Shown here in pieces: positions 762-64,000 of a stretch of DNA of 64,000 nt. A program made the translations under genes and the position numbers. Source of the DNA: Boothiomyces macroporosus (taxonomy: Eukaryota > Chytridiomycota > Chytridiomycetes > Rhizophydiales > Terramycetaceae); assembly GCA_027604185.1 (NCBI GenBank), contig JADGKB010000007.1:1-64000 (forward strand), in the 5' to 3' direction. The first letter of the stretch is position 1. Each line of letters opens with the position of its first letter. The notes below the pieces were generated by a model. The model made no database searches. It saw nothing but the letters and a program-made list of their open reading frames with translations, and was not told where the DNA came from.

Positions 762-1995
762 ATGATTAGAAGACAAATTTCTCATCTGTTTAAACTCAGA
801 CTTTTTTCAACAAAACCAATGGCAGACCACAAATTATGTATGATTCCAGGACCAGTCGAATTCGATCCGCTTGTCCTAAAAGCAATGTCAACTCCGGCAA
901 CTTCACATGTTGACCCTTCATTTATAACTTCATTCGGAAATGCAATTAGGCTTGCCAAGCAAGTTTGGCTTGCACCTTCTGGCCAACCATTTATTCTATC
1001 AGGATCAGGAACATTGACTTGGGATATGACTGCAGCAAACTTGGTCGAACCTGGGGAAAATGTTTTGGTTGTAAACACTGGTATTTTCGGTGATTGGTTT
1101 GCAGAATGTTTATCTGTGTATGGAGGTAAAGTTGACCAAGTTAGGGCGGCATTTGGTGATGTATTTTGATTTTAATTTAGATTCCAACTCTCGCTCAAAT
1201 CGAAACTGCATTGAAATCAAAGTCATACAAATTGATTACTGTGACTCATGTTGACACTTCATCTGGTGTTTTGAACGACATCAAAGCAGTTGCTGAATTG
1301 GTTCACCGTGTTTCCCCTAATACCTTAATTGCCCTTGATGGAGTTTGCTCTGTTGCAGCTGAAGAAATCCGTATGGATGAGTGGGGACTTGATGTGGTAA
1401 TGACCGCTTCTCAAAAAGCAATTGGTGTTCCTCCAGGTTTAGCTTTAATGGTTGTAAGTCAACGCGCTCTTCAAGTAGCTGCAAACAGAAAAGCTCCTCC
1501 AACTACCTACTTTGCCTCTTTCAAAAAATGGCTTCCTATTATGCAAAAATACGAAGCTGGTCAGCCATCTTACTTTGCTACTCCTCCAGTCCAATTGATC
1601 CTTGCTTTGGAAGTTTCCTTGAACCAATTCATGAAAGAAGGCATGGAAAAGAGATTCGCTAAGCATGTCGAAGCGAGCAAAAAGTTTAAACAAGCTTGTG
1701 CTCGATTTGGTCTTAAGATTGTACCTTTGTTTAATTTTAGGTTCCTGTAAATGACAAAGTTGCTGCTAATACCTTGACTGCGATTTACTACCCAGAAGGC
1801 GTACAAGGAGGTGAAATTCTTAAATCCCTTTCTCAAGCTGGAGTAGTTGTTGCTGGTGGTCTCCATCCTGAACACAACACAAAGTACTTTAGAGTAGGAC
1901 ACATGAATGTTTCAGCCGTTGAACCAGAGCTCGGCCACATTGATAAGGTCATTTCTGCTCTAGAAAATAGTTTGAAGAGTCTCGGAAAATTGTAA
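762..1995 (+). CDS. AGXT: Alanine-glyoxylate / serine-pyruvate aminotransferase
   Basis: PLP-dependent class V aminotransferase that converts glyoxylate plus alanine to glycine plus pyruvate; 397 aa after removing two 20-nt introns (1161-1180, 1721-1740, both phase 0). Without splicing the frame breaks at each; after splicing the family sequence is continuous. Visible features: the N-terminal MIPGPVEFDP-type motif, PLP-contacting Asp near residue 186 (ALDGVCS) and the Schiff-base Lys near 212 (TASQKAIG). Translation from 762 adds a basic, Arg-rich 19-residue leader that looks like a mitochondrial presequence; a second ATG at 819 gives MADHK without it. The C-terminus is GKL, a weak peroxisomal PTS1-like tripeptide. 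The gene ends 14 bp from the convergent gene at 2010. Family assignment is firm; the targeting is inference. Confidence 0.93.
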
Positions 1996-2009
1996 TAAAT
2001 CCATTACAA

Positions 2010-2684
2010 TTATAAATCTTTAATCAAGTCTTTGTAAAAATAATACAGCATATCCTTCCTTGCCAGATCGATATACCCTTGCAGTTCCTTTGAAGTATCT
2101 ATAACTGATGGCAATTCTTCCTTGGTCTCGAATTCTCTAACTTTATCTTGAAACTCTTCAGTCCAATCTTTTGAGTAATCTACCCAAAACAACTCCAATC
2201 CACTCTTTACCAAATACATTAAAGATCCAGTAACATTCTTTTCAACAATAATATCAAACGGTTTGAAAGTCTCCATCATAGGATACCCATTCACCAATTT
2301 GCTTCCCGACACAGTAATATTAGAAATTTGACTAGATTCAATCGAGCAATTTAAATTTTCAAATAGCGGGTTTTCAAGTAGCTTTGAGTATTGTTCTTGA
2401 TCAAGTTTCTTTATGTTAATCATCATCCGCTCGAGAATTATGTATAGTACTTGGTCATCTCTTTGCAGACTCGTGATGAATCGAATTGGGCTGTGTTGAA
2501 TTATTTTGAACCAGTATTCCTTGTTTGGTAGGTAGAGTACTGTGCTGTTTTGGAGAGAAAATTCACAATCGAGTATAGTGATTTTCTTTTGGGATTCGTC
2601 GATTGATAAAATTGTTGGTTTGTTTATCCATTCATTGGAATCAAGGAACTTTACTTTGTTGACTTGGAAATTGTGGATTGACAT
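2010..2684 (-). CDS. Conserved-looking hypothetical protein, 224 aa
   Basis: Single-exon reading frame of 224 residues with normal amino-acid composition. It has a beta-rich first half, a mixed second half and an acidic, helical C-terminus ending LARKDMLYYFYKDLIKDL. No signal peptide, membrane segment or motif is recognised. It converges with the aminotransferase (14 bp apart) and is followed upstream by TSG101 on the same str and. Reality is supported by its length, its fit in a tightly packed row of genes and the lack of a better frame on either strand. I do not recognise the family. Confidence 0.7.
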   Translation of the reverse strand: MSIHNFQVNKVKFLDSNEWINKPTILSIDESQKKITILDCEFSLQNSTVLYLPNKEYWFKIIQHSPIRFITSLQRDDQVLYIILERMMINIKKLDQEQYSKLLENPLFENLNCSIESSQISNITVSGSKLVNGYPMMETFKPFDIIVEKNVTGSLMYLVKSGLELFWVDYSKDWTEEFQDKVREFETKEELPSVIDTSKELQGYIDLARKDMLYYFYKDLIKDL

Positions 2685-2746
2685 AGTTTTACTCTTAATA
2701 CGGTTTTATTTATACTAATTTAAGCTTTCTTGGATAAGGTTAAGGT

Positions 2747-4055
2747 TTAGCTAGTTATTATCGCTTTAATTTTTTGAAGTATAATTTTGTTCATGAATAC
2801 AGTTCGACTCAGTTCTCTAATGTTCTATGTTAATAAAGAATACTTTCAAACTGGTGTTGGAAAACTTTTTAGACAGGTAATAGATTGTATCTTCAATGGC
2901 AAAGTTTTCAACAGTCAAATCCACATACTGCTGGTGAAGAATCGTTGGGTATTTGAACTGCTGATCGTCAACATTCGGAATGGTTTTCAAGTAATTAATA
3001 TTGTTGACGAGTTCTTGTTTTTTAAACAGTAAAATGTCAGTATTGGATTTCAGTCCATTCTCAATTTGTTGTAGCCTTACAATTGTCTCATCCAGAAATT
3101 TTTGGTTTCCCAACAGTTGATTACTAAGAGATTTTAGTCTATCCGTTTCTCTAGGTGCATTCAGCTTGAATATTTCGATCCTTTCTCTTAGTTTTTGCTT
3201 CAAAACTTGTCTCTGTTGATGGAGCTTTTCAATAGCAGGGTCAATTTTAGGTTTCACTGGTTCAGGCAGCTTGCTTAGTCGCGGAGATTGGTATTGTTGA
3301 TTATTCACTGACTTGTATTGGCCAGATTGACCACTTGGCGACTGATAAGGAAAAGAAGTTGGTGGAGATTGAGAAAAAGATCCACTTCTTCCAAATTGAA
3401 CAGGGTATTGATTTGGAGAAGGTTGAGGAAGCTGTTGATTATTTCTAGGTGGAGATTGCTGCATCGGAAAGTTGGTTCTAGGCGGGGATTGATATTGGGT
3501 GGGAGGTGATGGTGCTGGCTTTTGAGAGTAATCAGTCCCTTGCGTTTGAACATCCTACAATAAAAGCAAACATACTGATTTAGTCTTTGGGGGGAGAGTA
3601 GGTTTGGCAACAACCGGAGGATCCAGTGAGAATTCCTTTTGTAATATCCCGCAAATTACCGGAAGAGTCTAGGATTAGGCGGCCTTACTTGTTGGTGACT
3701 AAAACTAAGAGTTACTAATCCTGTCTCGTTCACAATTTTTCCAGGTTTAATGTACATTTGCGGTGTAGGAGTTACAAAAATAATGGGATTCTGTTGGGGG
3801 TAACTTGAAGGAAGCCAGATGGATATTGGGATATTGTATCTGCTGGTCTGAAATTGAATTCCGATCACTCCAAATATATTGATAAGCAGTTCTTTCTGAT
3901 CTGTGTTAGCAAAGAATACAATAATCGGTTTTGGGGGATAACCCTCTGTGTTGAAGCAAAAGCGCTTCTAGATCTGTAGAAACTCGCTCCTGGAATTGGT
4001 ATCTACTGCTGACTGATAAAATCCATTGCTTTGTTTGTGGGTGCAGCGCAGCCAT
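2747..4055 (-). CDS. VPS23: ESCRT-I subunit TSG101 / Vps23
   Basis: Multivesicular-body sorting factor that recognises ubiquitinated cargo. Five exons, 409 aa; introns (minus strand) at 3901-3919 (19 nt), 3669-3688 (20), 3555-3575 (21) and 2825-2843 (19). Domain order: UEV domain (about residues 1-130, with RYNIPISIWLPSSYP matching the diagnostic NIPI-LWLL-YP stretch), a Pro/Gln/Ser-rich linker (about 150-240), a coiled coil (about 250-340), and a C-terminal steadiness box ending LKNIRELSRTVFMNKIILQK. That box appears only after removing the last 19-nt intron, a strong check on the splice model. The loop before QKELLINIFG in the UEV is a few residues shorter than usual. The start ATG at 4055 is 136 bp from the divergent gene at 4192. 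Confidence 0.92.
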
Positions 4056-4846: not shown

Positions 4847-7800
4847 TTATTTTCCTTCTGCAACATATGTACCATCCCAATCTACAAGCGGTGGTTGTTC
4901 AATGTAATGTTTACATCTAGAGAGCAGCACTTTAGACGGGCCATCGTCTGTTAGCTGTATTGCGGATTCAAATAGTTCCTGTGCTTGAATAAACATTCTA
5001 CGTTTGTAGAACGCCAGTCCTCCTTGGAATAACCTTATAGTTTCCGTCAGTTCTGGGCTGAGTATATCTCCCTTTCTTCCCAATAATTCATACATTTTGA
5101 CAGACATTTTCTTTCCTGTTACAACTACCGATTCAATTTCTCTGGTTATAAATGAATCCCCAGTTTCGTCTAATGTGAATTGGGTTATCAGAATGGTAAT
5201 ACCATAGTACTTTGTGAGACCTTCAGTTCTAGAAGCGAGGTTTACTGCATCACCTATACAACTAAATTCCATACGTTTCAAGGAACCGATATTTCCAGAT
5301 AACACCTAGTATTATTTCTATTTACCATTCCAGTATTTACACCAATGCCCATCTTGATTGTTTTCTTTCCTTGCGCCTCGCGGTCTCTATTTGTAATTAC
5401 CAATGCATCTCTCATCTTCAGTGCAGTATTGCAGGCATGAATTGCGTCTTCATCCTTTGCAAACGGCACTCCAAATACAGCCATGACTGCGTCACCTTTA
5501 ATCAGCCAATTTCTTACCAATAAACTTATCCAGTATACCTTGTTCCTCCGTAATTGCATTAACAGCATCTGTGAAGTGGTGGTTTAATAGTTCTACTACT
5601 TCTGGAGGATCCATGCCTTCGGAAAGTGTGGTGAATGATCGGATATCGCTGAAAAGAATAGACACCTTCTTTCTCTTGCCACCCAACTGGCCAGTACCTT
5701 CCTCCATAACCTGCTTAGCAAGTGCAGGTGACATGTATCTACCAAGAGTCATAACAGCTCTTTTTTCTGAAGAAATGTCATCAAGAACCACTACCACACC
5801 GTGACTACCAATAAGCGGCATAACCTGGTAATTGACAATTACACTGGAATTCACACCTTTGATCTCAAAGTCGGTAACGTATATGCTTTCCCAATTTTTA
5901 TACACTTGCCGGATATCTTTGAGTAAGTCTTTGTTTTGCTCTTCGCCAATCCATTTTTCTACCGAATTTTCCTTCATAAACTGCTCATCGACTCCTAAGG
6001 CATTCATTAACCATGGTCTATTTATAGTGTTCTAATTTAATCGCCTACTTACCAGCTTCATTGATTCAGATAATGTCATGACACAGGAAGTGATGGAACT
6101 CAATATACTTTGCAGATATATCCTCATGTCTTCCGTCTTTTTAAACAATTGGGATTTTTCAATAGCAACGGCAGCTGAAGGTTAATGACAGTTACCTTGG
6201 GAAGAAAAAGAACTTAGTATCATCTCATCCTCGGCAGAATATACTCCACTTCGCTTATTGATCATTTGGGTAACACCGATACACTCACTGTGAATATTCT
6301 TGATTGGCATGCATAAAATTGTTCGTGTAATGTAACCAGTCTGTTTGTCAACTTCAGGATTGAATCTGGAATCTTTGTATGCATCTTGAATATTAATTGG
6401 TACTTTGTTAGCGAATATTTACCTCCGCTGGTGAATGCAGCACCAGCAATACCTGCGTTCGATGGGATTCGAATTTCTTGAACGGAATCTCTTCCCTGAA
6501 TGATGGCTCGCAACTGTTTTCTTTCCGGGTCATGAAGGAACAATGTACACCTATCTGAACTTAGCAATTCTTTTGCAGAATCCATAATCACTTTTATAAG
6601 TTTGTCTAAATCCAAAATAGAAGCCAGTGATCGTGTAGTTTCCAATAGCACTGTAACTTTCTTTTGTGTTGTGTGCATTGATTCATATATTTTGGCATTG
6701 CCCATCATTGCACCAGCGGTATTGCTAAGCGATTTGAACAAATATTCGTCTTCCTTTTCAAACTTCTTTGGTGTGAAATCTGGACCTGGTCCCATTTTAT
6801 TTACTCCAACAAATACTCCAGTAATGTTGTCTCCGGATGATATTGGAACACAGATTAAGCTGTGAGGATCCCCGTCAAGATCTGGACAATCTACTTCTGG
6901 GCTGAATTGTGGGTACGAGGCTGGATTCCTTACATTAATCATACACCTATTTGCTATACTATATCCAACAAGTCCTTGGTTCATTGGGAATCTAGGCACT
7001 TGTTGCGTATCGGAAAAGCTTCCATAAGGCATTATCTCTTTTGTTTCGTCATCGACACGGTACAAAATAATTTGTTCGACATGCAGCATTGACGTTGCTT
7101 CTTGTAGTGCTTTTTCAACATCACTGTATATGTTTGCATCCAACGAAATTCCGCTATTGATATGCAGTAATCTGTCTACTTTTTCAAAAAAGCTCAGCAA
7201 ATATTGAAAGTTTTCCTTTCTCTCCATAGTCGACATGCCGTCCAACTTTTCCAAATAATCCGGTGCGTAATATTTACTGAGGAATCCTGTAGTCAAACTG
7301 GTATGTGTTAGAGGAAGAGTGTGAAGCGCATTATCAAGTTCGCTATCTGATTTTGTGAGATCTTCTCTTGAAGGTTCTTCGATAACTATTTGTGCTGCCA
7401 TTTCTGATGTCTGAGATTGCTTTCTACTCAGCGCAGTGGTAATGTGATGTATCGATGCTTTTCGACCGCTTGGAGTTTGGTATTTTGTATTTAAAAGCGC
7501 TGATTTAGTAATATAGTACCCTTGGAAGCTGTCTCTGATGCTTTGAGTAACACTGAAAGCCCGCCCAGAGCCAAAAATTCATCATTTGCTGGGGCTAGAG
7601 TTAAAAGATATGATTACGATATTTTGATAGTACAGAATTTAGCAGTACGCAAGCAGCACCTTGTATTTCTGCTAAATTGGCGGTTCTTGGAAGTAATTCC
7701 ATTAATACGGAAAGCAAGCCTGCTTCATATAAAACCGCAGGCATGGGAGGTTCTAAAATAAGAAAATTCTTACCAGTTTCCATCATTGATAATCGATTTA

Positions 7801-8815
7801 GCTCAGATAGCGCCTCTGACAATTTGTACATTGTGGCATCAATATCTGTCAAGATTGCCAATTGCTTTTCTACCGCCTCCAAATCTGGTTCTGGAAACCA
7901 CGAGTCAACAATTACCACTCCTGTGGCATTACTATCTCTATTGGTGCTTGGCGCTGGCAATGATGCTCTCCGAACATCAAAAACAAAAGAATTCTCTTCA
8001 TTTTTCAAGCTTTTCGGTATATTTATGTCATTGAGCATATCCGTGATGGTAATTGATGATTTAATTGTGGCCTGCTTTACTTGTTCTTGACGCAGTTTAG
8101 TGTAAAACCCTGAGGTGTGTGCTCCAGTTGGCAGTCCAGAAGAGTGTGTGCTATACATATTCGCACTTGCAGGTCGTGCCTTTGGTTTAAAATGATCAGT
8201 GCTATTAAAATTGCTGGTTGGCGTATTGTATGTTGCTGTTGTATCTAATATGATTGATGTGCTAGGTGCCTTGTCATCTTTTTTTGAAAATGATTGATGC
8301 TTCTGTTCATTTTTCTCTCTAGATGATATATTTGCTTTATAGCGATTGATTGCTGCCCCAGAAGGTCTTGGCATCGCATCCTTTGTCTTATCTTCAATAA
8401 TTTTGATAGAAGATCTAGGACGAGAGCTGTCAGGATTTTCGTGTATACTTCCACTACTTCTCCGTCTGGTTGCAGAGGGGGATTCTCCTAATGTGACAAC
8501 ATGTAATCCCGACATGCTTTGCTTTCTGATTGATTGACGGCTTATGACTTGTTGCTGCTTTTGAAAAAATCGATTGTCAATATTTTCCATTACGTCAGTT
8601 GTCATTGTTGAATTTGGTCGCCTCCACTGTCTCAAATTACTACTAGACATTAGAGCATAGCTAAATACCCGATATTGAGAGTATTTGTGTATATTTTGCA
8701 AGATGGTTAGTACCTCATATTGGTAAATTGACTGTATTCCAATACTCACTCTCAAAAACGCGGCTATACCGTTTTCACACTTACAAATCAACAGCATTAG
8801 ATGATATGCACTCAT
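4847..8815 (-). CDS. Large ARM-GAF-GAF-PAS-class III nucleotide cyclase
   Basis: Signalling enzyme expected to make cAMP (or cGMP), 1,273 aa if started at 8815. Eight exons; introns at 7595-7617, 7500-7519, 6403-6422, 6175-6195, 6032-6052, 5496-5517 and 5306-5325 (20-23 nt). Layout: a Ser-rich disordered N-terminus (to about 340), an armadillo-like stretch (about 345-430), GAF1 (about 550-700), GAF2 (about 715-865), a PAS-like domain (about 905-990) and the cyclase domain (about 1010-1190). Metal-binding Asp residues are seen in [10 protein letters not shown] and [10 protein letters not shown], and the Asn/Arg pair in GDAVNLASR. The Lys of DKFIGD favours ATP. The architecture resembles bacterial GAF-coupled cyclases more than yeast Cyr1. 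Another possible start, MSSSNLRQW, is at 8650. Product specificity is inferred. Confidence 0.88.
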
Positions 8816-9013: not shown

Positions 9014-11561
9014 ATGGCAGACAAAAAACCACCAAATCCAAAAAGAGCGACATTTAATAAGTATTACAAGTCTGAAGTAATATCACCCTACATTCAAAAA
9101 AGCAATATCTCAAAGTCCAGTTTCAATCTATCAGAAGTTAATCATGGGCCTAGCGACTCCAAAGTTACATCAGAGGCAAACCAAAACAAGAATGTCAGTA
9201 TGGAAATAAGAAGGAGTAGCATAAAACTTCAAGAGCCGACCGGTAAGGGATTCCAAATCAATTGGAAAATAAACTCTAGTACACCAAATCTCAAGGATCA
9301 ATCCTACGAGGTCGACCTCCCGATATTCAGGTATTTGTTGTTCAAACATAGTGAAATAAAAGCAATTTTGAAATCCGGGAATCTAAAGCAGCTTAAATTT
9401 GACTTGTCGTCGTTGAAGCATAAAGTTACAACTGAAGTGAACAACAGCCCAAGTGTCTTTGTATTCTATCGCTTCCTCACAAGTTATTGCTTTAAATTAA
9501 TCATGTTTCTCAAATCCGTAATTTTTAAATTGAATCTAGTGCGAAATTGATATCAAGCGATTTCTAGTTGATTTAAAATTCATTGCACCCCACGAATCAA
9601 TGGACAACTTTTCAAAACTGCTCAAGATCTGGGGAGGGCTGCAGGATGTGTATATGGTACGCTGAGCCTCATATTAGGACTTTATGATAAAGAAAGATGA
9701 ATACACTCAGAAAATCGCTAATCAGTTTGCTGAAATAGAAGAAGAAAACAATCTGTTCAAAGATTTCGTAGAGCAAAGGTCAAAATACGCTCCAAACCGG
9801 TTAATTGAAATTCAAGTTAACCAGATTGTCAAAAAAGTGGACCTGAAAGTAGAGCCAGTTGAAAAAAAGACAATAGAAGCAATGCCAAACGAAACTCCAA
9901 GACAGTCAATAGTAGAGAGCGAGCAAATGAGAACATCGTTGACTATAAAAAAGCAATTTCAGGACAAGAACATTCAGACGGAACAGATAGAGATGACTGA
10001 AATAACAAAGGATTTTATGGATAAAGCAACTGGTCCTGATAGAGAGATCCCAGTATATAGACCATTTGGCATCCAAGTGGATCTCCGGCACCCAATCGAA
10101 GATGCACACGATCAACTTAAATTCGACTACCAACAACTAAAAGAAGAGGTTTTATGCATCTAAAATAGAACAGAATGCTAAAAGAAGACGCAGAAAATAA
10201 AATCAAAGAGCTGCGTGATGAATATGGACTGAAAATATCCAATGCTGCAAAGGATGCCAATGTAGCTTCATTTTAACCAAAGGGTGAAATAATCCGATTG
10301 AAAAAGATTGTAGACTACCTTCAAAGTGAGAACGATCGCTTAGAAAAGGAATTAAACGACAGCAATTCAAGCAGAGCCCTAAAAGAACTTGAATTGGCAG
10401 CAGTTCGTGAAAAACTGACACAAGCTAGTCAACAATGTAACCCTTCCTTATTCTAGTGGCAATTCTAACTGAAGCGGACAAAGACAGAAAGCGCGTAGAA
10501 GCTGAATTAAATGATAAAATCAATTCTCAAAAAGCTGAATTGTTTGCCAAAGAAAGAAAAGAAGCAGAGCTATCAAGAAAATTAGAACAGCTTGAACAAA
10601 AGAATAGTGAGTTGACGAATTTATCTCAAACTCAATCAGCGCAATTAAAACAAACTCTTTCTCAGCTAAACGATTCTAAAGTTTACAATGAAGTTTTGGC
10701 AGGGAAAAACAAACGGTTAGAGGAAGAGCTGTCTTTGGAAAAGGAAGCAAAACAAAACTTGGAGGACGAGTACGATAAGCTGCTTGTAAATTTGTATTTA
10801 CTTTAGGATGAAGAAAAAGAAGCAAGAGAACAAGCTAGGCTTTTGCAGGAGGCAAATGACGAACTGGAAAGAAAGATTGCAATACTAATGCAATTCCCCG
10901 ACCTGTCACTCGGGAATGACTTTAATTTAAACGGTAAATTATTACTAATCAGATCCCCCATTATCGAAATCATTCATGGACACATTATATAATATGATTG
11001 AGCATAATAATCTAAGAATATCATTATTAGAACAGAGAAATAGACGCTACAGAGAAATATTAGTAAAACAAGGTAAGATTCGTTAATATAGCAATAACGG
11101 ATGGATACAAAGATTATACAAAGTACAAACCGTTAGCATCGTCAACGTTGGTGTTTAATATTGCTGCTATAGAACGATCAAGGCCGACTACTGCAGATTC
11201 GTCAAAAACACAAATTCAAGAGACTTATATTATAGGCTCTACCAGCAAATCCAGGCCAGTAAGTGCCTCAAGCGTAAGACTGCTTCGACCAGGAAGTGCT
11301 GCTTCGGAAAAGAGCTTCAAATATGGCGCACTGAAAGATGGACAAATCGATATTAGAGAAATCGATCCTACAACTACCTTCCCACCACCACTAACAAAGT
11401 TCCCTTTCCTGAATAACAGATTGGATCCGCTGTCAGCTTACGACGGGGTGGTTTTAGAAGAGTTTGAAGAGAGTGTTCCCAAACCAGTGCCAAGACGGCC
11501 AATATCGGCAATCAACAGACCTCCCTCAGGCGCACTGTACAGATGGAATCGAAATGAATAA
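9014..11561 (+). CDS. Coiled-coil protein with RPxSA-type repeats, possibly flagellar
   Basis: 794 aa from nine exons; introns at 9518-9539, 9657-9677, 10149-10168, 10262-10282, 10437-10456, 10786-10806, 10934-10952 and 11073-11091 (19-22 nt). The N-terminus is basic and disordered (MADKKPPNPKR). A central helical region holds long heptad-like Glu/Lys/Gln stretches (about residues 220-620). The C-terminus has short motifs of the form RPTTADS, SRPVSASS, RPGSAAS and RPISAIN. Such Arg-Pro-x-Ser-Ala motifs are common in ciliary and flagellar proteins of zoosporic organisms (general knowledge, not proof), and this window carries DRC2. I cannot name the family. The start at 9014 is the first ATG. 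The summed exons are in frame throughout. Confidence 0.72.
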
Positions 11562-11628: not shown

Positions 11629-12025
11629 ATGGTAATTGCAAACTTAAATGCAGGGAGGAGGAGCAAAATTTCCAGCACCTAAATGGGTTTGGACGCCATA
11701 CGGTAATTTGGGATAATGATAGGTGGTTGGTGGCCAACTCCAAAATATTCCTTTACAAATTCATTAATTACTACTGGAATTATTCTTGGACTTGCTTCGA
11801 TTACATTTTCTATTTCAGCATCAAATGAAGTACTGATTCATTAATGTAGCGCCGTCATCGATATCCAAAAGGCTGGATTCCGTCAATGCTCTGGTCAAAG
11901 GAGTTCCACGTACATTTGTATTGACATAGGATCCAGAATTAGTGGCCCAATGGAAGGAGCAGTTACAGATTGAAGGAAGGGAGTGGATTGAACCAATTCC
12001 AGCATGGTGGCCTTTCAAGAAATAA
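11629..12025 (+). CDS. Small complex I accessory subunit-like membrane protein
   Basis: 104 aa spread over five exons, too fragmented to appear as one open frame. Introns: 11632-11653 (directly after the ATG), 11703-11722, 11830-11849 and 11910-11929 (22, 20, 20, 20 nt). The spliced protein begins MGGGAKFPAPKWVWTPYGGW. It has one membrane span (TTGIILGLASITFSI), then RRHRYPKGWIPSMLWSKEF and an acidic, Trp-rich tail ending PAWWPFKK. The PKWVWxPxGGWW plus RYPxxWIPS pattern is that of a small NADH:ubiquinone oxidoreductase accessory subunit found in fungi and plants. I recognise the pattern from memory and am only moderately sure of the exact subunit. It should sit in the inner mitochondrial membrane. 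Confidence 0.72.
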
Positions 12026-40305: not shown

Positions 40306-40334
40306 TATATTTTTCATTTTGTTTTAAACAATGT

Positions 40335-41430: not shown

Positions 41431-41468
41431 ATAAAAATTCGATATGAACACATTTATTAATCTACATT

Positions 41469-43688: not shown

Positions 43689-43840
43689 GTTTAATTTTAA
43701 CTTGATAAACTGACATTTGCATTTCCCAATTGAACTCTAATACTGTCCAATCAATTAACTCTTGGATGGATTTGATCTAAAAATTAAATGCTAATTTTAA
43801 GCTTGAAAAAGTTTGCAAATTGATCTTGTAAAAACAAAAA

Positions 43841-49600: not shown

Positions 49601-51087
49601 TTCACCCCAAGGATTACAAGTTGGCACGAAAAATGGCTGCGGATGCTTTGGATTTGGATGACTCTGTTTTAGACGACGATCACAATCCATCCCAGCACGT
49701 GCAAGAGTTGATTGAAGGAGACTCTGATCGTCTCAATCTATTGTTGTTGGACGATTATGCTGACGAACTGGAGAGAAGAAACCACGAGCCAAAACGTGTG
49801 TGTCTGAACTTGATCAAGGATGAATTAATGTATCCCTACAAAGATCATCGCAGGCCATTTGTTGGAGCCAGTGATGAAGCAATCTTTAATATGCTTACTG
49901 GTGAATCTGACGCCACGCTATACGAAGGAGCAGTTGTATCTGCTGTCGTTACTAGAGTTCAACCTCGGTTCATCAATGTACAATTAGGGTCGGGAATTGA
50001 AGGCACAGTACATATGTCAAACGTGGACGTTCCGTATGGAGGAGATGTTGATTTAACGAGGATGTTCCATGTCAATCAAGCACTGATGTGCAGCGTCAAG
50101 AATATCAATCTGGAAAGATTAGGTGTGGATTTATCCATCAGAGCTGCTGATCTGGACGCAAATTCAAACAAGTCTAGAGTGAGAGTAGATCAATATTTTG
50201 ATTTTGTTGCTCAGGAAAAACAAATTATCAAGGAAAAGCAGAATGCAAAAAAGATTGTGAGAGAAAAGCAAGTGCGCTTTGTTCAGCATCCATTCTGGCA
50301 GGCAACTGATTACAAAGGGGCACAAGCATACTTGGCAAATCGACCAAGAGGAGATTTGGTTGTACGTCCATCTGGAAAAGGAAATAACCATATTTCGATC
50401 ACTTGGAAAGTCGATGAAGGTGTGTACCAACACATTGGTAACTTATTTTTTATCCAGATATACTTGAGTCTCAAAAGGAAAACGAATGGAGTCTTGGAAA
50501 GAGATTAACAATTGACGATATGCAGTTCTTTGAAATTGATCAAATTATTGCAGAATATATTGAACCAATGACTAGAAAAATCTCCATGCTGATTGACCAT
50601 CCAAAATACCAAAACAAAAGTCTCTCGGAAATGTGTAAGTTCTCTTCTTAATCAAGATACATTCCTGACTGAGCAAGTTCACCAACTAAAGCGATCTGCA
50701 TATGGATTCATCATTTCTCCAGACAAACCAGGCTCTTTTTTGTTGGTGTTCCGTCATCCATCTAATAGTCCAAGACAAGACGTTATTACAGTCCGCCCTG
50801 GCTATTATGAATTCCGAAACAAAAAGTTTACAGACGTTGAGCAACTGTTGATGTACTTTAAGCAATCTGAGGCAGCTAAAGCCACACAAGCAAGTGCACA
50901 GCAACCTAGAGGCCATTCGGATAGAAGGTCTGATCCAAGAAACGATCCTCGCCAGCAACAAAGAAGACCTGAACGTTCAGACAGAGACAGATCAGATAAT
51001 CGACGGCCTCCAGACCGATCTAGGGACAATCGCGGACCACCTAGGTCTGGATACCAGCAAAATGGATACAGCGGTCGCAACTATTAA
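46656..51087 (+). CDS. SPT6: Transcription elongation factor / histone chaperone SPT6
   Basis: 1,423 aa in nine exons; introns at 46743-46762, 46974-46992, 47355-47374, 47546-47564, 48384-48403, 48728-48747, 50438-50457 and 50635-50656 (19-22 nt). Domain order: a highly acidic N-terminus (about 1-250), helix-turn-helix/core region, YqgF-like domain (IGVAPYRTRPEDEE onward), helix-hairpin-helix with FVSGLGPRKAQAMI, S1 domain (VVSAVVTRVQPRFINVQLGSGIEG) and tandem SH2 region (HPFWQATDYKGAQAYL; RSAYGFIISPDKPGSFLL), ending in an Arg/Asp/Gln-rich tail. It reads the phosphorylated Pol II linker and chaperones histones. Intron 2 has two in-frame donors (46968 or 46974). It converges with PEX2 21 bp away. 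Confidence 0.96.
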
Positions 51088-53996: not shown

Positions 53997-56900
53997 ATGT
54001 CATCACAGGAACTGTGCAATATACTACAGCAAGCGACGTCGCTTGACACTGTGAAACGAACAGAAGCTTTGAAAATACTTGAAAATTGGGAAATCGCTCC
54101 AATGTACCATGCGACGCTTCAGCAAATTTATTTGGATGTGAATTTGGATATAAAAATCAGATCTTTGGCTGTTATATCGTTGAAAAATGGAATCGACAAG
54201 TATTGGAGAAAGTCAGCTAAAGGAGCAATTCAACCGCAGGAAAAACAGCTGATTAAGCAGAATCAACTTCAATTTCTTGGGGAAACGAATCGCCAATTAG
54301 CCACACAACATGCAGTTATTATTGCCAAAATTGCAAGACACGATTTCCCCAATGAGTGGTAAATTTTGAATAACGCAGGCCGGATTTATTGGATATATTG
54401 ATGCCAGTTGTAGAGCAAAGTTTCAATTCAAACTCCAGTATGAGATTCAACTCCCTATACACCCTTCATCTAGTGATGAAATCCCTGACATCTAAAGCTT
54501 TGCCATCTGCTAAGCGCATAACGCAAATGATAACACCAAATGTTTTTCGATTTACCCTGACTGTATTTCACACTCAACTTGCAAAGTTTTTCGCTCTTGT
54601 TGAACAGAATTCTACTGATGTTAACGAGATTAATGACGCACTTGTATTGTCAAAAGTTGCTCTAAAATGCTTACGCAGACTTACCATTAATGGATACCAG
54701 AAATTTAGCGAGGCTACTGAAGTAACGGTAAGTACTTGATAATCTAGGAATTATTTGCTTCTTTGAATGGGTACCTTCCAAAACTACAGACTATATGTAA
54801 GCTTTGTTAAATGTAGATGCGCAACTTTCATCCACTGCAAGTGCAAAACCTATCTCAAATACTCTGAATGGGATTTTGATGTTATTTGGAAAACTATTTC
54901 TAAATGCATCGACAGACAGAGTTGTGGATTTCATGCTTGTGCCTTCCACGATTGAAACTGTTCGAATTTACTGGGCTTTTGTCGAGTCTGAAACTTTGGG
55001 AGGTAATCAATTGTAACCAAGATGATCCACTATATGAGAATATCAAAATTCAAGCACTAAAAATATTAAAAAACATTGTCAAGCACCCTGCGTACCATGT
55101 AGTTTCAGAAAAGCATGCAGATCCTAGAATTCCTGAAGTTCTAAACATATTACATGGTATTCTTACACAAGAATTTATTTTGGCTTGTGCGAAAACGTTA
55201 CTATCTCGTTATATCTGTTTGTCAAAGTCTGACTTGGAACTATGGGAAGACGATCCAGAATCGTTCAATCAGGAAGAAGAATCTGATCATTGGGAATTCA
55301 ACATTAGGGTATTTAAATTGTAATTTAGGGATGCGCAGAGAAACTCTATATGGTTTTGAACTCTAAATACCGAGAGTTACTATCGCCATTCTTGGTAAAT
55401 ACTTTGAATAGCTTAGGTGGTACGTTTTCTTTAATTTAGATCCGAATGCTTCAAATTTATTATTTTTGGAAGGTTTGTATTGCGTATTTGGCTCCTGTGC
55501 CTTTGAACTATATGATTACTTTGATTTTGACCAGTGGTTCGAAACAAAGTTGATTTTTCAAGTTCAAAACAAATTACCAGAGTTCAAAGTATTGCGTAGA
55601 AGGATAGCAGATTTAATGGGACACTGGGTAGGAGTAAAGAGCGCAAAAGAGAAACGAGCAGTATTATATGAAGCTATTATTTCGTTGCTGCAGCCTGGAG
55701 AAGACACTGTGGTCAGATTAAGGGCTACCTCTAATCTGCTCAAGCTAATTGATGACTTTGATTTTGACCCAGCGCAATTTTTGCCTTATCTTCAGCCAGT
55801 GATTGAAAATTTCAAAGATTTGCTGGATGCTGTCGACGAATTTGACTCTAAAATTACTATTATCAATTGTCTTATTGCAATAACTGAACGATTAGAAGGA
55901 CAGGTTGGTTTTGCTAACTTTAGGCTGTTGTAGCAATGGCGCCACTGTTTTCTGTTATTCATAACTTGTGGTTACGATCTGAGGGACAGAATATGTTTAG
56001 AACATCCATCGTCAAAATTCTAACTAAATTTGTTAAAACTTTAAGAGGGGAATCATACCAAATGTACGAAATGGTTGCTCCAATTTTGCAGGAAAGTCTA
56101 GACACTTCAAATCCCGGACATGTATACTTGTTTGAAGAAGGTTTGGAGCTATGGCTGGCAACTATGCAGAACTGCCCTCGTGCTCATCAAGGGTTACTCA
56201 ATTTGGTACCAATCGCAATAAGTTTGTTGGATCTAGGAACCGAAACACTAAAGAAAATTATCCATATTCTGGAGGCGTATATTGTAGTTTGCCCGCAGGA
56301 AATATTCCAGTCTTATATCACTCCAATCACAACAACTGTCAGTGGAATGCTGGAAAATGTTTCTGCACCTGCGGTCGGCACACTTTTAAAAATGATTGAC
56401 CTCATCATTCAATCGGCCAACAACACCAACTGCATACCAGCGCTGTTTAATGTCATTTATTCATCTGGATTTTTCAACAAACTAGTTTCAGTGATATTAA
56501 TTGGGGAAGACCTCAGTGTAGTCATTATCGCTTACATGATGGTGTTGGCTCGAATGGTTTTATATGATCCTAATAGTGTTCTTCATGCATTCGAAGCTGG
56601 AGGTCAAGATATTATAGATAGATTGCTTTTAGCAATGATTGACAAAGTACTTTTAGGTTAACTTTAGTTTGATGCTTTGAGTCATATTAGACAATCCAAA
56701 CTCTTTGCATTGAGTTTTGCTTCGTTGATTTCTACCGGGCATCCAAAAGTTGTCTCAAAACTAGGAGAATTCTTTGCGATTTTCACTTCTGTTGCTGTTC
56801 AGTTAAAGGATTTAGATCGCACAGAGTACGATTAATCTAATTTAGGGCTCAACTCTTTTCATTTGAAGTAAGAAACGAAGATGACGATGAATTCAGTTTG

Positions 56901-57083
56901 GACTTTGAACGTCGCAAATATTTAAACTCGTTAGACCCGCTTTATATGGAAGGCTCTCTCGTTCCCTTCATCAAGACAAAGCTTGCAGAGTTTGAACAAA
57001 AAGTAGGAACCGCATACTTGAATGAATTGACAAGAACGATTGATCAGGATATTATGCTTCAAATCAATAGAATGTTTCAATAA
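53997..57083 (+). CDS. KAP120: Importin-11 / Kap120-type karyopherin beta
   Basis: Nuclear transport receptor, 968 aa in ten exons; introns at 54359-54378, 54728-54747, 54797-54816, 55003-55021, 55309-55328, 55420-55439, 55904-55923, 56647-56667 and 56826-56845 (19-21 nt). The N-terminal importin-N region contains RSLAVISLKNGIDKYWRK and ATQHAVIIAKIARHDFPNEWP, diagnostic of the IPO11/Kap120 branch. Later: a conserved RRRIADLMGHWVGV segment and the C-terminal family stretch with DPLYMEGSL. The frame is open to 53973, but the first ATG is 53997. HEAT repeats make up the whole protein. It converges with NDUFS4, 24 bp away. Confidence 0.92.
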
Positions 57084-57107: not shown

Positions 57108-57604
57108 TTATTTGGTATGATGCCAGGTGAGTTTCTTTGGATTGTACTACATTAATAATGCTTACCTTGAAGTTGTTGGAATAACTTCTCACTTTGAATT
57201 TGGCAACCTTTGGTTCCTGAACTACATATTTATACCCTTGCTTTTGAGCAAACAAAATTGCATCCTCCTTGGTGTTAAATTTAATTCTAAGAGCCTGAAC
57301 GGTATCAGCACTATTGTAAATTCACAAGAAACCTTGAGGACCAACCCATCAGTTCGTTTTCCCATCTTTGCTGGACATCGAAATCAATCTTCCAGTAATC
57401 GGTTTCTGCGGTTCCTGATTGCATGTTGGTTTTAGCTGGTCTGTATATTCTAACAGTTCTGGTTGTAACATCAAGAGGAACTCCGGAAACAATATCCGCC
57501 TCATATACAGCTGCTTTCGAATCAGCTGGAATTGTGACTTTATTTTCAGTGGTGAATAATCGGGTGAATACTGGTCGTTTTGCAAATGCTCTGGCGATGG
57601 ACAT
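57108..57604 (-). CDS. NDUFS4: Complex I subunit NDUFS4 (18/21 kDa)
   Basis: 151 aa in three exons; introns at 57311-57332 (22 nt) and 57147-57165 (19 nt). A mitochondrial presequence (MSIARAFAKRPVFTRLF) precedes the ETC_C1_NDUFA4-type domain: [57 protein letters not shown] and the family end with FKVRSYSNNFKYNPKK. It supports assembly of the NADH-oxidising arm. Its presence means the organism respires with complex I. Confidence 0.95.
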
Positions 57605-57654: not shown

Positions 57655-59187
57655 ATGGCAAAGAAAGGCAAGAAGGAAAAGGGAAATAAAAGCGAATTTG
57701 GAATTTATAAGAATGAAGAAGAGAGGAGAAAGGCGATGGAAGAAATGAAGCAAAAAGCAAACGTAGGACAATATTTGACAGGTAGGAAAAGCGAATTGCT
57801 GAGGAAAAGATTTACAGATTAAACTCGCTAAAGATCCAAAACAGATGGAAAGAGATTATGAAGCAAGGTAAGCTAAGGATAATTTGAGCCAAGTCTATTG
57901 AGCTGAAGAACCAGATCGAGATATTGAGACAAATTCAATCGCGCAGACTAGACAAGAAGCAAACCGAAATTGACAATTTAAAAGCGTCAATGGTTCAATC
58001 GGAAGAGCAATTTACAAACGCGTTGCAATCTCATTTGATTAATATCGATACTTTGATAGACTTGCAAAACTCGCGATTGGAAACGTTAATAACACAATTT
58101 GACGATGATTTGAATGCCTTGGAAACTGAATTTAACACTGAGCGGTAACTGGACTGTAATTTAGAACTATGTTGCAAATTCAGCACGCAAAAGAACGAGG
58201 AGATACTCTTGGAATTATGATGAGGGCAGAGCACGAGTTTATCGAAAACGAAGCTGATGCCAAGCATGAATATTCCAGTGTGCGAGATGATGTAAAGAAC
58301 AAAGTACGGTATTTTTGATGGTAGAATCTGGAAGAGAAGCATGCGCTGAGAATTCAATTAGAAGGGACCGTTGAAGATCTATGGAGGCAGTTCCAATCCG
58401 CTTTAAATCAGTACAATACCTCTACAGATGAAAGGAAAAAACAATTCGAAGAGCTGAAACAAAAGGACCAGAAGAATGCAAAAGAAATCGAGCAACAAAT
58501 GAAAAAGCTGGTGAAATTGCAGGTAAGATGGATTAATCCAGGAAAATATTGCTCACTTGAAGACTAAAATGAGTAATACTGCCAAGGATTATGAAGAGAG
58601 AAACAAAGCTTTGAAAGAAGAAAAGGATGCGATTCAAGTTCAGTTTCAAGCCTTAAAAAAACGAATGAATACTTTTAGAGAAGAAGAAAGACATCGCCTA
58701 ACTGAACTTACCTTGCTATCCAATAGTGTCATCAAAGCACTAAGAGTTAAAGTGGAAAAGGCAGAGCAAATCATTAAACTGGCTGAAATGAATAGAAAGC
58801 TAGAGACTGAACAAGAAAAGATTTGTCCATTCTATGAGGAATCTCCATTCGAATCAGTAAGACTAATTAACACAGGTGCCAGAAGTTGAAATCGATATTG
58901 AACTTCCAAAAGAATTCCATGGAATGCATCAGTTCAACAAGCGCTTCAACAAAGTATTTTTGGACAAGTTGGCCCTCGAGAAACAATATGCTTCCTTGTC
59001 AGAAGAAAACTCTAGACTTCGAGCAATATTAAAGCAATATTTGGACGGAATTACCTTGTCAGAGTCTGTTATCAATGAACTGAATCCTTTGATTGTTGTG
59101 AACGGAAAGACGAATGCACCATTAAGGCAAAGGGGGCCAGTGCATGTTACTTATGTTGAGGCTGCCCAATGTGTTGCTTCGAAATAA
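57655..59187 (+). CDS. DRC2: Dynein regulatory complex subunit 2 (CCDC65)
   Basis: 469 aa coiled-coil protein of the axonemal nexin-dynein regulatory complex, which regulates flagellar beating. Seven exons; introns at 57763-57785, 57868-57888, 58145-58164, 58304-58324, 58523-58541 and 58857-58875 (19-23 nt). Diagnostic stretches: [39 protein letters not shown] (nearly identical to animal and algal DRC2) and [14 protein letters not shown]. The first intron has two possible AG acceptors; only the distal one keeps the frame. This gene is the clearest sign that the organism builds a motile flagellum. Confidence 0.94.
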
Positions 59188-59590: not shown

Positions 59591-60766
59591 ATGCTAGCGT
59601 CCCTTGTATTTGCCATTGCAGTTGCTGCTTCACCTGTCCATAAACCGATCAGTGCCAAGATTCACAAAGTCCCATCTACTCATGTTGAAAAACTCAATTC
59701 TGCTCAATTTGCTTTGAATAGATTTTCTTCAAGTTCTGGCAACTCTGAAGACTTGACCAATATCAACAATCTTTTCTACAAAGCCGATATTGTTGTTGGG
59801 ACTAACCAAAAGTTGACCATCGATTTGGATACTGGCAGTTCAGATCTCTGGGTTAGAGGGTCCCAGTGTACTGACAACGGAGATGGCTCATGCCAAGGAA
59901 GCTCAGTTGATACAACTGATAGCAACTTGGTTGACCAAGGTCAAACATATTCCGTAAAGTATGGTTCTGGTGGTGTTAGTGGTGAAATCTATACTGCCGA
60001 TGTTTCAGTAGCTGGTGCAAAAGTCCAAAGCCTTCCAATTGGTGTTGGAACCAACCTTCAAGGGTTTGCTAACCAAGCTGACGGTCTCCTTGGTCTTGGA
60101 TTTGATTCAATCTCCCAAATTTCTCAAGCACTTGGTAAATCTGCTAATTTCTTTGATGGTCTTGGTTTCACAGGAGCAAACAATGTATTCTCATTTTATC
60201 TCTCTGATGCCAAAGATGGTGACAATGGGGAAGTTACTTTTGGTGGAATTGACTCGTCAAAGTTCACAGGGAACATCAACTATGTTCCGTTAAACTCTCA
60301 AACTTTCTGGCAATTTGATGCCACCAACCTTAGCTTCAATGTTGCTGGTCAAACTGGAGCTGTTGGTGATTCAAACTATTCCACTGATGCAATTTCTGAT
60401 ACTGGCACCTCTCTCATTATCCTTGGTCAAACTGCTGCAGATGGAATCAACCAAGCAATTGGTGCTACCTATGATTCCAACCAAGGAGCATATGCCATTG
60501 ACTGCGGTGTAGCTAAAACTGGATCCCCAATTGATTTTGTTTTTGGCGATCAGCAATTCACTCTATCCATTCCGCCACAATATTACGTTCTTGACGCTGG
60601 AAATGGTCAATGTATTTCTGGTATCTTGGCTGGAGCTGGCAATGGAACTCCAAATATTTTTGGTGACATTTTGTCAAGGGCTTACTACACCGTTTATGAC
60701 AAGGGCAACACCCAGGTTGGATTCGCCCTTGCTAAACAGCCTAAAAGAGTTCTTTTCATAGAATAA
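59591..60766 (+). CDS. Secreted pepsin-type aspartic protease (intronless paralogue)
   Basis: 391 aa, single exon. Signal peptide MLASLVFAIAVAASPV; a short basic propeptide; and an A1-family bilobal catalytic domain with Asp residues in DTGSS (about 80) and DTGTS (about 270). The end is YYTVYDKGNTQVGFALAK. It is closely related to the five-intron gene at 14684 and fully lacks those introns. Secreted or vacuolar protein digestion is likely. There is no anchor at the C-terminus. Confidence 0.94.
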   Translation: MLASLVFAIAVAASPVHKPISAKIHKVPSTHVEKLNSAQFALNRFSSSSGNSEDLTNINNLFYKADIVVGTNQKLTIDLDTGSSDLWVRGSQCTDNGDGSCQGSSVDTTDSNLVDQGQTYSVKYGSGGVSGEIYTADVSVAGAKVQSLPIGVGTNLQGFANQADGLLGLGFDSISQISQALGKSANFFDGLGFTGANNVFSFYLSDAKDGDNGEVTFGGIDSSKFTGNINYVPLNSQTFWQFDATNLSFNVAGQTGAVGDSNYSTDAISDTGTSLIILGQTAADGINQAIGATYDSNQGAYAIDCGVAKTGSPIDFVFGDQQFTLSIPPQYYVLDAGNGQCISGILAGAGNGTPNIFGDILSRAYYTVYDKGNTQVGFALAKQPKRVLFIE

Positions 60767-60845
60767 ATAGTATCGCTTTCGCCTTTATTTTGTGTAACTC
60801 GCATGTGAGTCACAGCATCAAAAAATCTTTTTTTTAACTTTCAAC

Positions 60846-62014: not shown

Positions 62015-62052
62015 GTGTTTTTTATCCTTTTTTGAATTGTCTTTTTTCCCAA

Positions 62053-63492
62053 ATGGAATCCCAACCGTTACTTGTACATGCCCGCATTGTTCAAAAGTCG
62101 AAAAATAAGCTTTATTGCTGCTGCGCAATAATCGCGGCGGTCCTAATTAGCGCCTTTGCAGTGTATGTCAGCACTCTGACTTTGTCCTCGGAGCCATTGG
62201 AGCAGGTTGCAGTATTTGACAAAGTGCTCCATTCACAACCAGATTCGTATTCAAGAATGGAGATTCATTACAAAGGAAGTGGATTGCATATCGAATCGCA
62301 AGTATCTTTTGAGGAAACTCAAGAACCGAGAATCGGTTATGTGGTAAAATCAAACGACCCCAACTGTTTGCAACACTTGCTGTTTGACCACGAAATATCT
62401 GCCGACAAACTTGAAATTTCAATCACGTCCGATTACAATGGGTTCCATTATCCAACTATACATGTTGATTTGACAATTACTATGCCGAAAGCCAGCACGC
62501 TATCTCAGTTTCAAAGTGAAGGAGGACTGGTTTGGAAAGGTCAAGGAATAAAGTCACCCGTCAAGCACTTTTCATCAAAATCCAACTTTGGGTCATTGAA
62601 GATTAGTGATTTAGATACTGCAAACCTCGAATTGTCCGCCAGTGCTGGGTCTATATCTCTTTCAGATATAACATCTCAAAGTAATATTGATTTGAAATCA
62701 TCTTTTGGTTCTGTTTCATTGGAAAATGTTGCTACCGACTCCCTATCGTGCAAAGTAGATTCTGGTGGTATAAGAACTGACAATGTTACTATCAACGAAA
62801 AAGCTCAATTAGAAACATCATTTGGATCAATTAAAGGAACTGTAAATCCATGTTAATGTAGCAAATTGATGCTGGTACCTTGCATGTGAGTACAAATTCT
62901 GGGGGGATTGAATTCAACAAAGTAAATGTAAAGCTTGACTCGTCTTTCAAGTCTTCCTTTGGCTCAATTACGCTGCATGTACGATTAATGATTAAATTAG
63001 GAAATGAAATCAAATTCGTTGATTGCAAGCGCTTCCTCAGGAACAGTACATGCTTTGAAAGTAGAACTAACAGACGCAGTTGAAATTTCATCATCTTTCG
63101 GATCAGTTCAAGTCGATCTTTGTTATCCAGATTATGGCATAGCTTCCACAAAACTTGAAGCAAACTCTGGCTCAATCAATGGCAAAATATCCAACTACAA
63201 GAAGTTGGACGCTCATTCCAATTTTGGATCAATTAAGCTGGATCTGTCCCCAAGGAAAGACGAGAATTCTTCTACAAAACTGTTTGCAGATTCTGGAAGC
63301 ATAAAAACCACAGTTTACGAATATCAAGGTCAGTTTGATGCAACAACTTCCTCTGGCTCATTAACTATTTCTGGTGATGTAGAGTTTATCGTTGACAAGT
63401 CGCATCAAAAGAGTGGAATAGTCAGAGAAGGAACAATAGGCACTCTCTACTCTCACTCTACATTTGGCTCAACTACATTGAATTTTAAATAA
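62053..63492 (+). CDS. Type II membrane protein with DUF4097-like beta-solenoid (copy 2)
   Basis: 465 aa; three exons with introns at 62842-62861 (20 nt) and 62979-63000 (22 nt). The start MESQPLLVHARIVQKSKNK mirrors copy 1 (METQPLLAP). Anchor LYCCCAIIAAVLISAFAVYV. The solenoid repeats use SSFGSV/SNFGSI cores more than SSGS, so the Phe/Ser choice differs between copies. It is about 85 residues longer than copy 1 owing to extra repeats. Both end GSTxLxFK. Tandem duplication is clear from order, topology and ends. Role unknown; surface adhesion or wall contact are guesses. Confidence 0.75.
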
Positions 63493-63521
63493 AAAAGATG
63501 AATTTATTAACAAGAAAATAG

Positions 63522-64000
63522 TTACTTGAATAACCCAACGTAAACTTTGAACTCATAAGACCCAATTCCAACTTCTTCAATGTCGTTTTTAATGCTCGTT
63601 CCAAACCTACTATTAGTTACATTTACAGTTCTAGCAATACACAACTAAGAGCAACTTCGTAATCGTAAGGAATCATAACATTGGTTTGGTTCAATCTGGG
63701 TTAATAACAGATACCTAAAAGTATTGACGATATTAATTACTTGTTGATCAATTTTAGAATCAACTTGGAGAGCCATCGAGCATTTGGTAATTCTAAATCA
63801 AAAAGATCATTACTGATGGAGAATTTTTTGACAAAAGATTGACTTGCGTTGTTGATCATCATAATCATCTGAAATCTTTGGGGCTTTTTGATTCAAAATG
63901 TATTCCTTTGTATTAAACGTGATTATTTCATTCAAGAAATTCACAATCTTGCCAAACTTTGAGAGAATTGGCATTGCCGTGTTTTTCTCTGGTTCCAGCC
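63522..64000 (-). CDS. Unrecognised protein, C-terminal part, runs off the right edge
   Basis: The minus strand from the edge reads an open frame joined by introns at 63793-63813 (21 nt), 63696-63714 (19) and 63607-63626 (20), ending at the stop 63522-63524. The visible part has about 138 residues, including KFGKIVNFLNEIITFNT and the C-terminal EVGIGSYEFKVYVGLF. The three in-frame 19-21 nt introns match the rest of the window, which supports a real gene. I do not recognise the family. It converges with the solenoid gene, 29 bp away. Confidence 0.65.

Follow-up and report, generated by a model that had tools for sequence, protein, structure and literature searches.

So far, uniformly tiny introns had been described in relic nuclei, in reduced parasites and in ciliates. 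As summarized in PMC10245619, introns measure 18-21 bp in chlorarachniophyte nucleomorphs and 16-17 bp in mikrocytids, with 224 introns given for M. mackini, and this summary, like PMC9505925, places those of the heterotrich ciliate Stentor at 15-16 bp. For fungi, a survey of 644 genomes describes the 63-bp mean of Cryptococcus as relatively short (PMC8476143). Intervening sequences removed in several steps are also on record: recursive splicing at ratchet points is described for long introns of Drosophila and human (PMC8605326, PMC6110457, PMC6110456), and fungal stwintrons are described as compound sequences that need more than one splicing reaction, one intron being nested in a splice element of another (PMC8469720). 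Here we describe the introns in the first 64,000 nucleotides (nt) of contig JADGKB010000007.1 of Boothiomyces macroporosus (this whole stretch is the window), with gene models read over 264 kb of a 15.2 Mb assembly, on 21 contigs: the window plus one 10-kb stretch from each of 20 other contigs (L004-L023). We think it very likely that this is a chytrid nuclear genome with U2-type introns reduced to a module of fixed size (19-23 nt); longer intervening sequences would be chains of that module, and the splicing machine would act as a ruler.

The size class is visible with no gene model at all. Counted on both strands of the 264 kb, GTA and TAG stand 19, 20, 21 and 22 nt apart 144, 162, 143 and 118 times, against a background with a mean of 92 (standard deviation 12) at distances of 40-120 nt; at 8-59 nt outside this spike the largest count is 129, at 13 nt. 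A gene finder using only codon statistics and GT/AG ends, with an intron length prior that was flat over 10-300 nt, placed 42 of its 173 calls at 19-23 nt and scattered the others thinly. With donor and acceptor matrices added, trained first on the 18-23 nt calls and later on all calls with a strong signal, 236 of 441 calls fell into this range under a prior flat over 12-300 nt, and 299 of 435 under a prior flat within 12-60 nt that left 2% of its weight for longer introns. The final finder reads one strand at a time, allows introns to abut in arrays, and spreads 90% of its prior weight evenly within 15-25 nt and 10% within 26-300 nt; gene models scoring below 8, or overlapping a better model by more than 30%, were excluded before counting. 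Of its 395 calls, 355 are single introns of at most 25 nt and seven are arrays, while 33 are non-modular and 26-300 nt long. The mode is 20 nt and 318 calls are 19-23 nt long (76 of 19, 138 of 20, 65 of 21, 31 of 22 and eight of 23 nt), while 37 single introns have other sizes. A two-strand version was discarded because it called too many long introns on the minus strand, where 43 of its 47 non-array calls above 25 nt lay, since nothing in it makes a minus-strand gene end at a start codon.

Within the window, the final finder gives 103 introns of 19-23 nt (19 of 19, 46 of 20, 23 of 21, 12 of 22 and three of 23 nt), close to the 108 that a first-pass annotation of the same letters had rebuilt in this size range (18 of 19, 52 of 20, 22 of 21, 13 of 22 and three of 23 nt). 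Outside the range there are four calls of 18 nt, one of 24 nt, three of 15 nt and seven longer ones; those of 15 and 18 nt are multiples of three with no clear branch motif by eye, and we distrust them. The annotation had further taken the 20-nt mode for a trait of the genome, and the calls on all 21 contigs agree with it, as does a genome-wide excess of motifs: GTAAN{6,9}YTAAYN{1,3}AG occurs 6,735 times in the 15.2 Mb, versus 1,294 times for the reversed pattern. This strict motif is matched by 85 of the 318 introns, a rate that translates the count into about 20,000 introns; the intron density of the sampled 264 kb translates into about 18,000. These figures suggest that the genome would hold 18,000-20,000 introns. 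Throughout the genome, introns appear to keep within narrow limits and to measure some 25 nt at most, which places it among the tiny-intron genomes.

The consensus of the 20-mers is GTAATTnnnnnYTAAYnTAG. The GT and AG ends are required by the gene finder, whereas the spike in GTA-to-TAG distances does not depend on that finder. A YTRAY branch motif is present in 216 of the 340 single introns that measure 18-24 nt; its branch A lies in most at nucleotide 14 (107 introns) or 15 (83), and 5 nt (110) or 6 nt (80) from the intron end, and both the distance from start to branch and that from branch to end increase with intron length. U6 carries ACAGAGA, U2 carries GTAGTA, and U1 starts with ATACTTACCTG (its match of 68.8 bits is just below the cut-off of 69.5). 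A U2AF65-like gene scores 230.7 bits, below its cut-off of 310.3, and has internal stops that could be introns. By their GT-AG ends, branch motif and canonical U1, U2 and U6, the introns appear to be of the U2 type, in keeping with their earlier designation as spliceosomal, and since these three RNAs look canonical, the recognition RNAs would be ordinary and the substrate minimal. At donor position +5, T (148 of 340) is favoured over G (64 of 340) in the 264 kb set, window included, although the 5' end of U1 is canonical. As to introner-type copies, random pairs of single introns average 0.575 similarity, in a comparison not aimed at copy families.

It is scarcely credible that the segments are instead short coding inserts, DNA removed in the manner of ciliate internal eliminated sequences, or assembly errors. 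Such segments could be read through in the 38 of 340 single introns that are both a multiple of three and open, but retention would disrupt the frame in the other 302, as 253 are not a multiple of three and would shift it, and 49 of the remaining 87 contain an in-frame stop. They are bounded by GT and AG, not by the TA of ciliate eliminated sequences, their branch motif sits at a fixed place, and the genome has U1, U2, U6 and the U2AF65-like gene. Homologous proteins, as well as an intronless paralog, are continuous where the introns lie.

This continuity can be followed closely in SPT6 (46656..51087, plus strand), whose eight introns of 19-22 nt lie at 46743-46762, 46974-46992, 47355-47374, 47546-47564, 48384-48403, 48728-48747, 50438-50457 and 50635-50656. 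We aligned 12 of the 99 homologs found, the closest being that of Terramyces sp. JEL0728 (P0001), which is 93% identical over the searched region and continuous at such junctions. Five of the eight junctions fall inside the scored conserved core (residues 240-1350), and within five positions of them the share of deleted residues is zero in 11 of the 12 homologs, compared with 0 to 0.029 elsewhere; this measure counts deletions and leaves insertions aside. Two mucoromycete homologs have a few extra residues just past another junction. In four other window proteins, 13 of 14 junctions lie inside the aligned Pfam stretch. The class-V aminotransferase gene (840..1995, plus; introns 1161-1180 and 1721-1740, both 20 nt) matches Aminotran_5 (1.6e-20, residues 54-329) across both junctions, and NDUFS4 (57108..57604, minus; introns 57311-57332, 22 nt, and 57147-57165, 19 nt) likewise matches NDUS4 (5.1e-38, residues 50-143). 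The match of a polyprenyl (farnesyl-type) synthase (16126..17342, plus; introns 16459-16478, 16560-16578, 16942-16961, 17097-17116 and 17299-17320) to polyprenyl_synt (2.5e-80, residues 61-324) covers four of five junctions. An aspartic protease (14684..15933, plus; introns of 19-21 nt at 14950-14970, 15153-15171, 15530-15549, 15765-15784 and 15825-15845, with a doubtful 18-nt call at 15314-15331) matches Asp (1.6e-62, residues 64-378) across all five. Its intronless paralog (59591..60766, plus) serves as a natural control: with 185 identities in 392 columns, it is continuous at all five intron sites. With five introns in one paralog and none in the other, this family has also lost or gained introns. 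That removal restores family proteins had been proposed from the letters, and wherever it was tested, with SPT6 homologs, Pfam domains and the paralog, removal is exact. These sequence comparisons confirm the uniform tiny introns of the window as real.

Outside the window, whole introns abut head to tail, AG against GT with a zero-length exon between them, in arrays of two to nine units. In a DCAF5-like gene (L026, minus strand; array at C8:113.7k), 149 nt resolve into seven units of 22, 23, 20, 21, 21, 22 and 20 nt. Its protein was aligned to six of 13 homologs; the joined flanks read ELVFKGT^GHLSNIFSIEF, as in Boothiomyces sp. JEL0838, Terramyces and the distant homologs P0104 and P0105, while Boothiomyces JEL0866 has 13 extra residues at the site and Globomyces is without part of the region. 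The WD40 match of the protein begins four residues before the array junction. In MGM101 (L044, L045), 179 nt resolve into nine units, and the joined flanks read FGPGGWAL^VPRGPHT; after removal, Pfam Mgm101p matches across the junction (7.7e-18). In an alignment of MGM101 with eight orthologs, taken from 120 listed matches (2,476 were found), six are continuous at the site (JEL0838, Globomyces, Gorgonomyces, Polyrhizophydium, Batrachochytrium and Spizellomyces), JEL0866 has 12 additional residues at the exact array point, and Terramyces lacks 31 around it. We infer that JEL0866 and Terramyces have arrays at this site as well, and that annotation failed there in both. The MGM101 array (L044 402-580 and L045; contig C1:351.6-351.8k) is at the same time a 20-nt minisatellite, GTAAGTGTAATTTGAGATAG and variants, in which each repeat is intron-like, and the number of introns could differ between individuals with the repeat copy number. 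Locus L026 (contig C8:112.9-115.9k) is a hot spot of intron stacking, with one array of seven units and two of three in a pair of neighbouring divergent genes.

Array junctions also lie inside Pfam matches to V-ATPase_G (two units), MATH_2 (four), UQ_con (two) and HOOK_N (two), and MCM_N starts two residues past the array of an MCM7-like gene. The Pfam match of a methyltransferase gene with a three-unit array stops short of the junction, and removal restores what we take to be a motif of METTL2-type enzymes. Weaker cases are an ING-like gene, whose family match with a five-unit array (0.0038) is under the cut-off, and a COQ1-like array fragment with no Pfam match. Throughout, domain names given without a Pfam match are putative.

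In the alignments, identity to the JEL0838 counterpart is 98% for MGM101 as well as for the DCAF5-like protein. The fungal lineage assigned earlier can accordingly be narrowed, to judge from these sequences, to a chytrid next to Boothiomyces sp. JEL0838 and Terramyces, presumably in the order Rhizophydiales. An aphelid or rozellid origin was rejected in view of the 93% identity of SPT6 to its Terramyces homolog. Two JEL0838 proteins (P0100 and P0113) run on without a break where the seven-unit and the nine-unit array lie, and annotation pipelines must therefore already remove such introns in part. The first-pass annotation had known of no described fungus-lineage genome with a 20-nt mode; we found no paper on one, but the sister genomes are public and their annotation already takes out some of these introns. 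The same JEL0838 DCAF5-like protein has seven extra residues (HQKLKIG) at another junction. Indels at junctions of tiny introns or arrays occur in the public proteins P0101 and P0114 (Boothiomyces JEL0866), P0115 (Terramyces JEL0728), P0002 (Globomyces JEL0801) and P0100 (JEL0838), and are probably annotation errors in these related chytrids.

The arrays can be set against chance in several ways. A strict pair pattern, in which two units abut and the second has a branch motif, occurs 17 times genome-wide versus none for the reversed pattern, and once versus none with a 6-nt exon placed between the units. In the unselected 264 kb, three unit pairs have spacing 0 at the lowest threshold, versus 0.20 on average (2 at most) at spacings of 1-60, and one and none at the higher thresholds. 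Chains scoring at least 4 number four there, versus none reversed and 0.0 on average over ten Markov-3 simulations; one of these chains, L014, is false by its flanks. A pattern of three junctions demands no branch motif; all of its 25 matches were used, and NTRAY is in place in 27 of their 35 distinct units, versus 169 of 1,643 background segments (about 10%), a contrast whose nominal probability is too small since several units share arrays and some are duplicates. Loci L034-L044 were picked by eye from lists of pair-pattern matches with complete units favoured, so their share of branch motifs is biased. Scaled by the fit of single introns to the pair pattern, there would be roughly 150-230 abutting pairs genome-wide. 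Among the matched stretches, three are identical at two places (G000:C2:305861/C2:348457, C20:43117/C20:88184 and C1:393103/C173:12185), a hint that the assembly may contain segmental duplications or haplotype copies.

Several results weigh against the proposed module. The gene models and motif matrices derive from the same sequence, the matrices initially from calls of 18-23 nt. The SPT6 homologs vary at one core junction, where the Globomyces protein (P0002) shows a deletion and P0008 is longer by five residues. The 33 non-modular calls of 26-300 nt were printed with their flanks, and only some are explained away, so rare true longer introns may remain among them. They are an argument for a mixed population, in which tiny introns dominate and a minority of ordinary longer introns is confusable with genes fused by the model, an alternative that we hold to be unlikely. 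Those that can be judged from their flanks are coding or fuse neighbouring genes, and the lengths of the 33 have no obvious peak. In the window, the calls of 119 and 203 nt fuse neighbours and that of 85 nt is coding, judged from flanks and putative families (we take it to be the C-terminus of a COQ7-like gene); those of 38, 68 and 48 nt lie at a model's end or inside a weak model. The seventh, a non-modular call of 44 nt at 29395-29438 in an ABC-transporter-like gene, speaks for the mixed population. Elsewhere, long non-modular calls in L005 and L008 (102 nt) were rejected as introns, as they cover what we take to be kinase coding sequence. The earlier statement that no intron is longer is contradicted by no verified intron of the window, but it fails for the genome, which has multi-unit arrays of 38-179 nt.

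The arrays add to the points on that side. Four seeming two-unit arrays are false by what we take to be family motifs: in L043 the first unit codes for VTDFNE of a U2AF35-like protein, in L021 a 24-nt unit and in L022:3560 a 13-nt unit are coding, and in L014 the second unit codes for YESLNQ. Chains scoring at least 0 number four in the 264 kb, versus six reversed and 0.9 under Markov-3; a loose pair pattern with no branch motif has 120 matches versus 185 reversed, and is no evidence by itself; and the three-junction pattern has 25 versus 10 in the control. In the allowed range, five of the nine units in MGM101 lack NTRAY, as do four of the seven in the DCAF5-like gene. These gaps also suit the rival view that the tiny introns are real while a single splicing step takes out a whole array, using its first donor with its last branch point and acceptor, the inner units being relics of tandem duplication or of independent gains at the one site. 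Such removal would yield the same protein, and some arrays are tandem duplicates whose inner order is possibly young: the plus-strand array on C8 has two identical units, adjacent near-identical 20-mers of the MGM101 array are 0.90-1.00 similar, and two adjacent pairs in the ING array are 0.86 and 0.83 similar, compared with the random-pair mean of 0.575. If arrays were removed in one step, however, the inner units would decay. Those of the seven-unit array are only 0.48-0.60 similar, like random introns, yet all are 20-23 nt long with GT and AG, and the units found with no constraint on the branch carry NTRAY far above background. That unrelated inner units thus hold on to their length and their GT and AG ends, and in many cases to the branch motif, speaks for separate removal of each unit, and no non-modular long intron is verified among the calls examined. 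We consider one-step removal improbable, at about one chance in a small handful. As for origins, duplication and independent arrival of units both seem to be present.

In the module reading that we prefer, each module would consist of a GTAAT-like donor, a branch A at nucleotide 14-15 and an acceptor ending 5-6 nt past it. A spliceosome with ordinary U1, U2 and U6 recognition sequences would presumably act on it by intron definition in a minimal geometry, measuring length like a ruler. Longer intervening sequences would, as far as verified, be only head-to-tail chains of complete modules; each unit would presumably be excised alone, each AG|GT regenerating a donor. Geometry, uniformity, arrays and, as the proteins imply, exact removal are documented at the level of sequence. 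We lean, with some reserve, towards a stronger version, in which the spliceosome is locked to 19-23 nt and splices longer introns hardly or not at all, so that longer sequences survive only as exact chains of up to nine modules that are removed recursively. If this is true, intron arrays would constitute a gene architecture of their own, one that grows as a single module is duplicated in tandem or as insertions recur.

The remaining window genes, located by the gene finder, follow the same pattern. What is probably the TSG101 gene of the first-pass annotation (2747..4055, minus) has introns at 3901-3919 (19 nt), 3669-3688 (20), 3555-3575 (21) and 2825-2843 (19), and a doubtful 24-nt call at 3636-3659. 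A minus-strand gene at 4847..8605, which we take to encode a GAF/cyclase-like sequence, has introns of 20-23 nt at 7753-7773, 7595-7617, 7500-7519, 6403-6422, 6175-6195, 6032-6052, 5496-5517 and 5306-5325. Two plus-strand genes look coiled-coil-like by eye: one at 9014..11561 with nine introns of 19-22 nt (9331-9351, 9518-9539, 9657-9677, 10149-10168, 10262-10282, 10437-10456, 10786-10806, 10934-10952 and 11073-11091) and one at 57655..59187 with introns of 19-23 nt (57763-57785, 57868-57888, 58145-58164, 58304-58324, 58523-58541 and 58857-58875). A small plus-strand gene at 11629..12025, with introns of 22, 20, 20 and 20 nt, was called in earlier finder runs only; it is absent from the final run and outside the count of 103. 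Further introns between 17368 and 24903 lie at 17838-17857, 17693-17711, 21109-21130, 20682-20702 and 22666-22686 on the minus strand and at 24882-24903 on the plus strand. The minus-strand gene at 26395..30062, presumably the ABC-transporter-like one, has introns of 20-21 nt at 29588-29607, 29176-29196, 29062-29081, 28942-28962, 28123-28142, 27500-27519, 27120-27139 and 26785-26804.

What is probably the annotation's SAPS gene (32175..34811, plus) has introns of 19-23 nt at 32315-32333, 32415-32434, 32757-32776, 32843-32863, 33007-33027, 33145-33166, 33354-33374, 33615-33634, 33925-33944, 34058-34077, 34436-34458 and 34628-34647, and a doubtful 18-nt call at 34667-34684. The gene after it (34931..36155, plus) has introns at 35103-35123, 35355-35374, 35432-35452 and 35526-35547; the 119-nt call at 34812-34930 was rejected, as it fuses the two, judged by the families that we take them to belong to. 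Next on the plus strand come a gene at 36230..38201 (introns 36360-36379, 36929-36950 and 37008-37029) and small genes at 40185..44072 (introns of 19-20 nt at 40185-40204, 40465-40483, 40726-40744, 41025-41043, 41265-41284 and 44054-44072). The gene at 53997..57083 (plus), probably the importin-11 of the annotation, has introns of 19-21 nt at 54359-54378, 54728-54747, 54797-54816, 55003-55021, 55309-55328, 55420-55439, 55904-55923, 56647-56667 and 56826-56845, and a doubtful 15-nt call at 55157-55171. Further introns between 61389 and 63813 lie at 61389-61408, 62842-62861 and 62979-63000 on the plus strand and at 63793-63813, 63696-63714 and 63607-63626 on the minus strand.

A fungal nuclear genome with such introns offers a system near well-studied fungi, with the sequenced sisters Boothiomyces and Terramyces and the more distant Batrachochytrium. 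It becomes possible to test the shortest and the longest distance over which a spliceosome can work, and the arrays are a natural experiment on the splicing ruler that can be read in sequence. There is a practical side as well, in that public proteins of sister species differ exactly at the MGM101 array junction, differences that we read as annotation errors. In the literature we found no report of tiny introns in chytrids or of abutting arrays of tiny introns, in a search whose coverage was thin for subscription journals and bioRxiv preprints.

Chlorarachniophyte nucleomorphs share the size class, the narrow range and the richness in introns with the genome described here, but they are relic nuclei of under 1 Mb, whereas this is a fungal assembly of 15.2 Mb; we know of no intron arrays in them. 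Mikrocytid introns are likewise uniform and minimal, with a conserved motif, but as described they are shorter and few in number, and they belong to a reduced parasite whose spliceosome has shrunk. Stentor has uniform tiny introns in a free-living organism, as here, but it is a ciliate, its introns are shorter, and several splicing proteins are given as not found there in the account of PMC9505925. The Cryptococcus mean, as the survey gives it, is far above the intron size in our chytrid. Like stwintrons, the arrays are compound sequences that would need more than one splicing reaction; unlike them, they consist of complete units with their own ends that abut AG|GT without nesting. Acceptor and donor are juxtaposed inside one predicted intervening sequence, and by analogy with recursive splicing a zero-length exon would regenerate the donor at each step, except that this is described for long introns in Drosophila and human, whereas here, to judge from sequence, the steps would be of about 20 nt in arrays of 38-179 nt. 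Tiny-intron genomes are thus an already known kind, of which the fungal case is potentially a new variant, and the arrays are potentially a new architecture.

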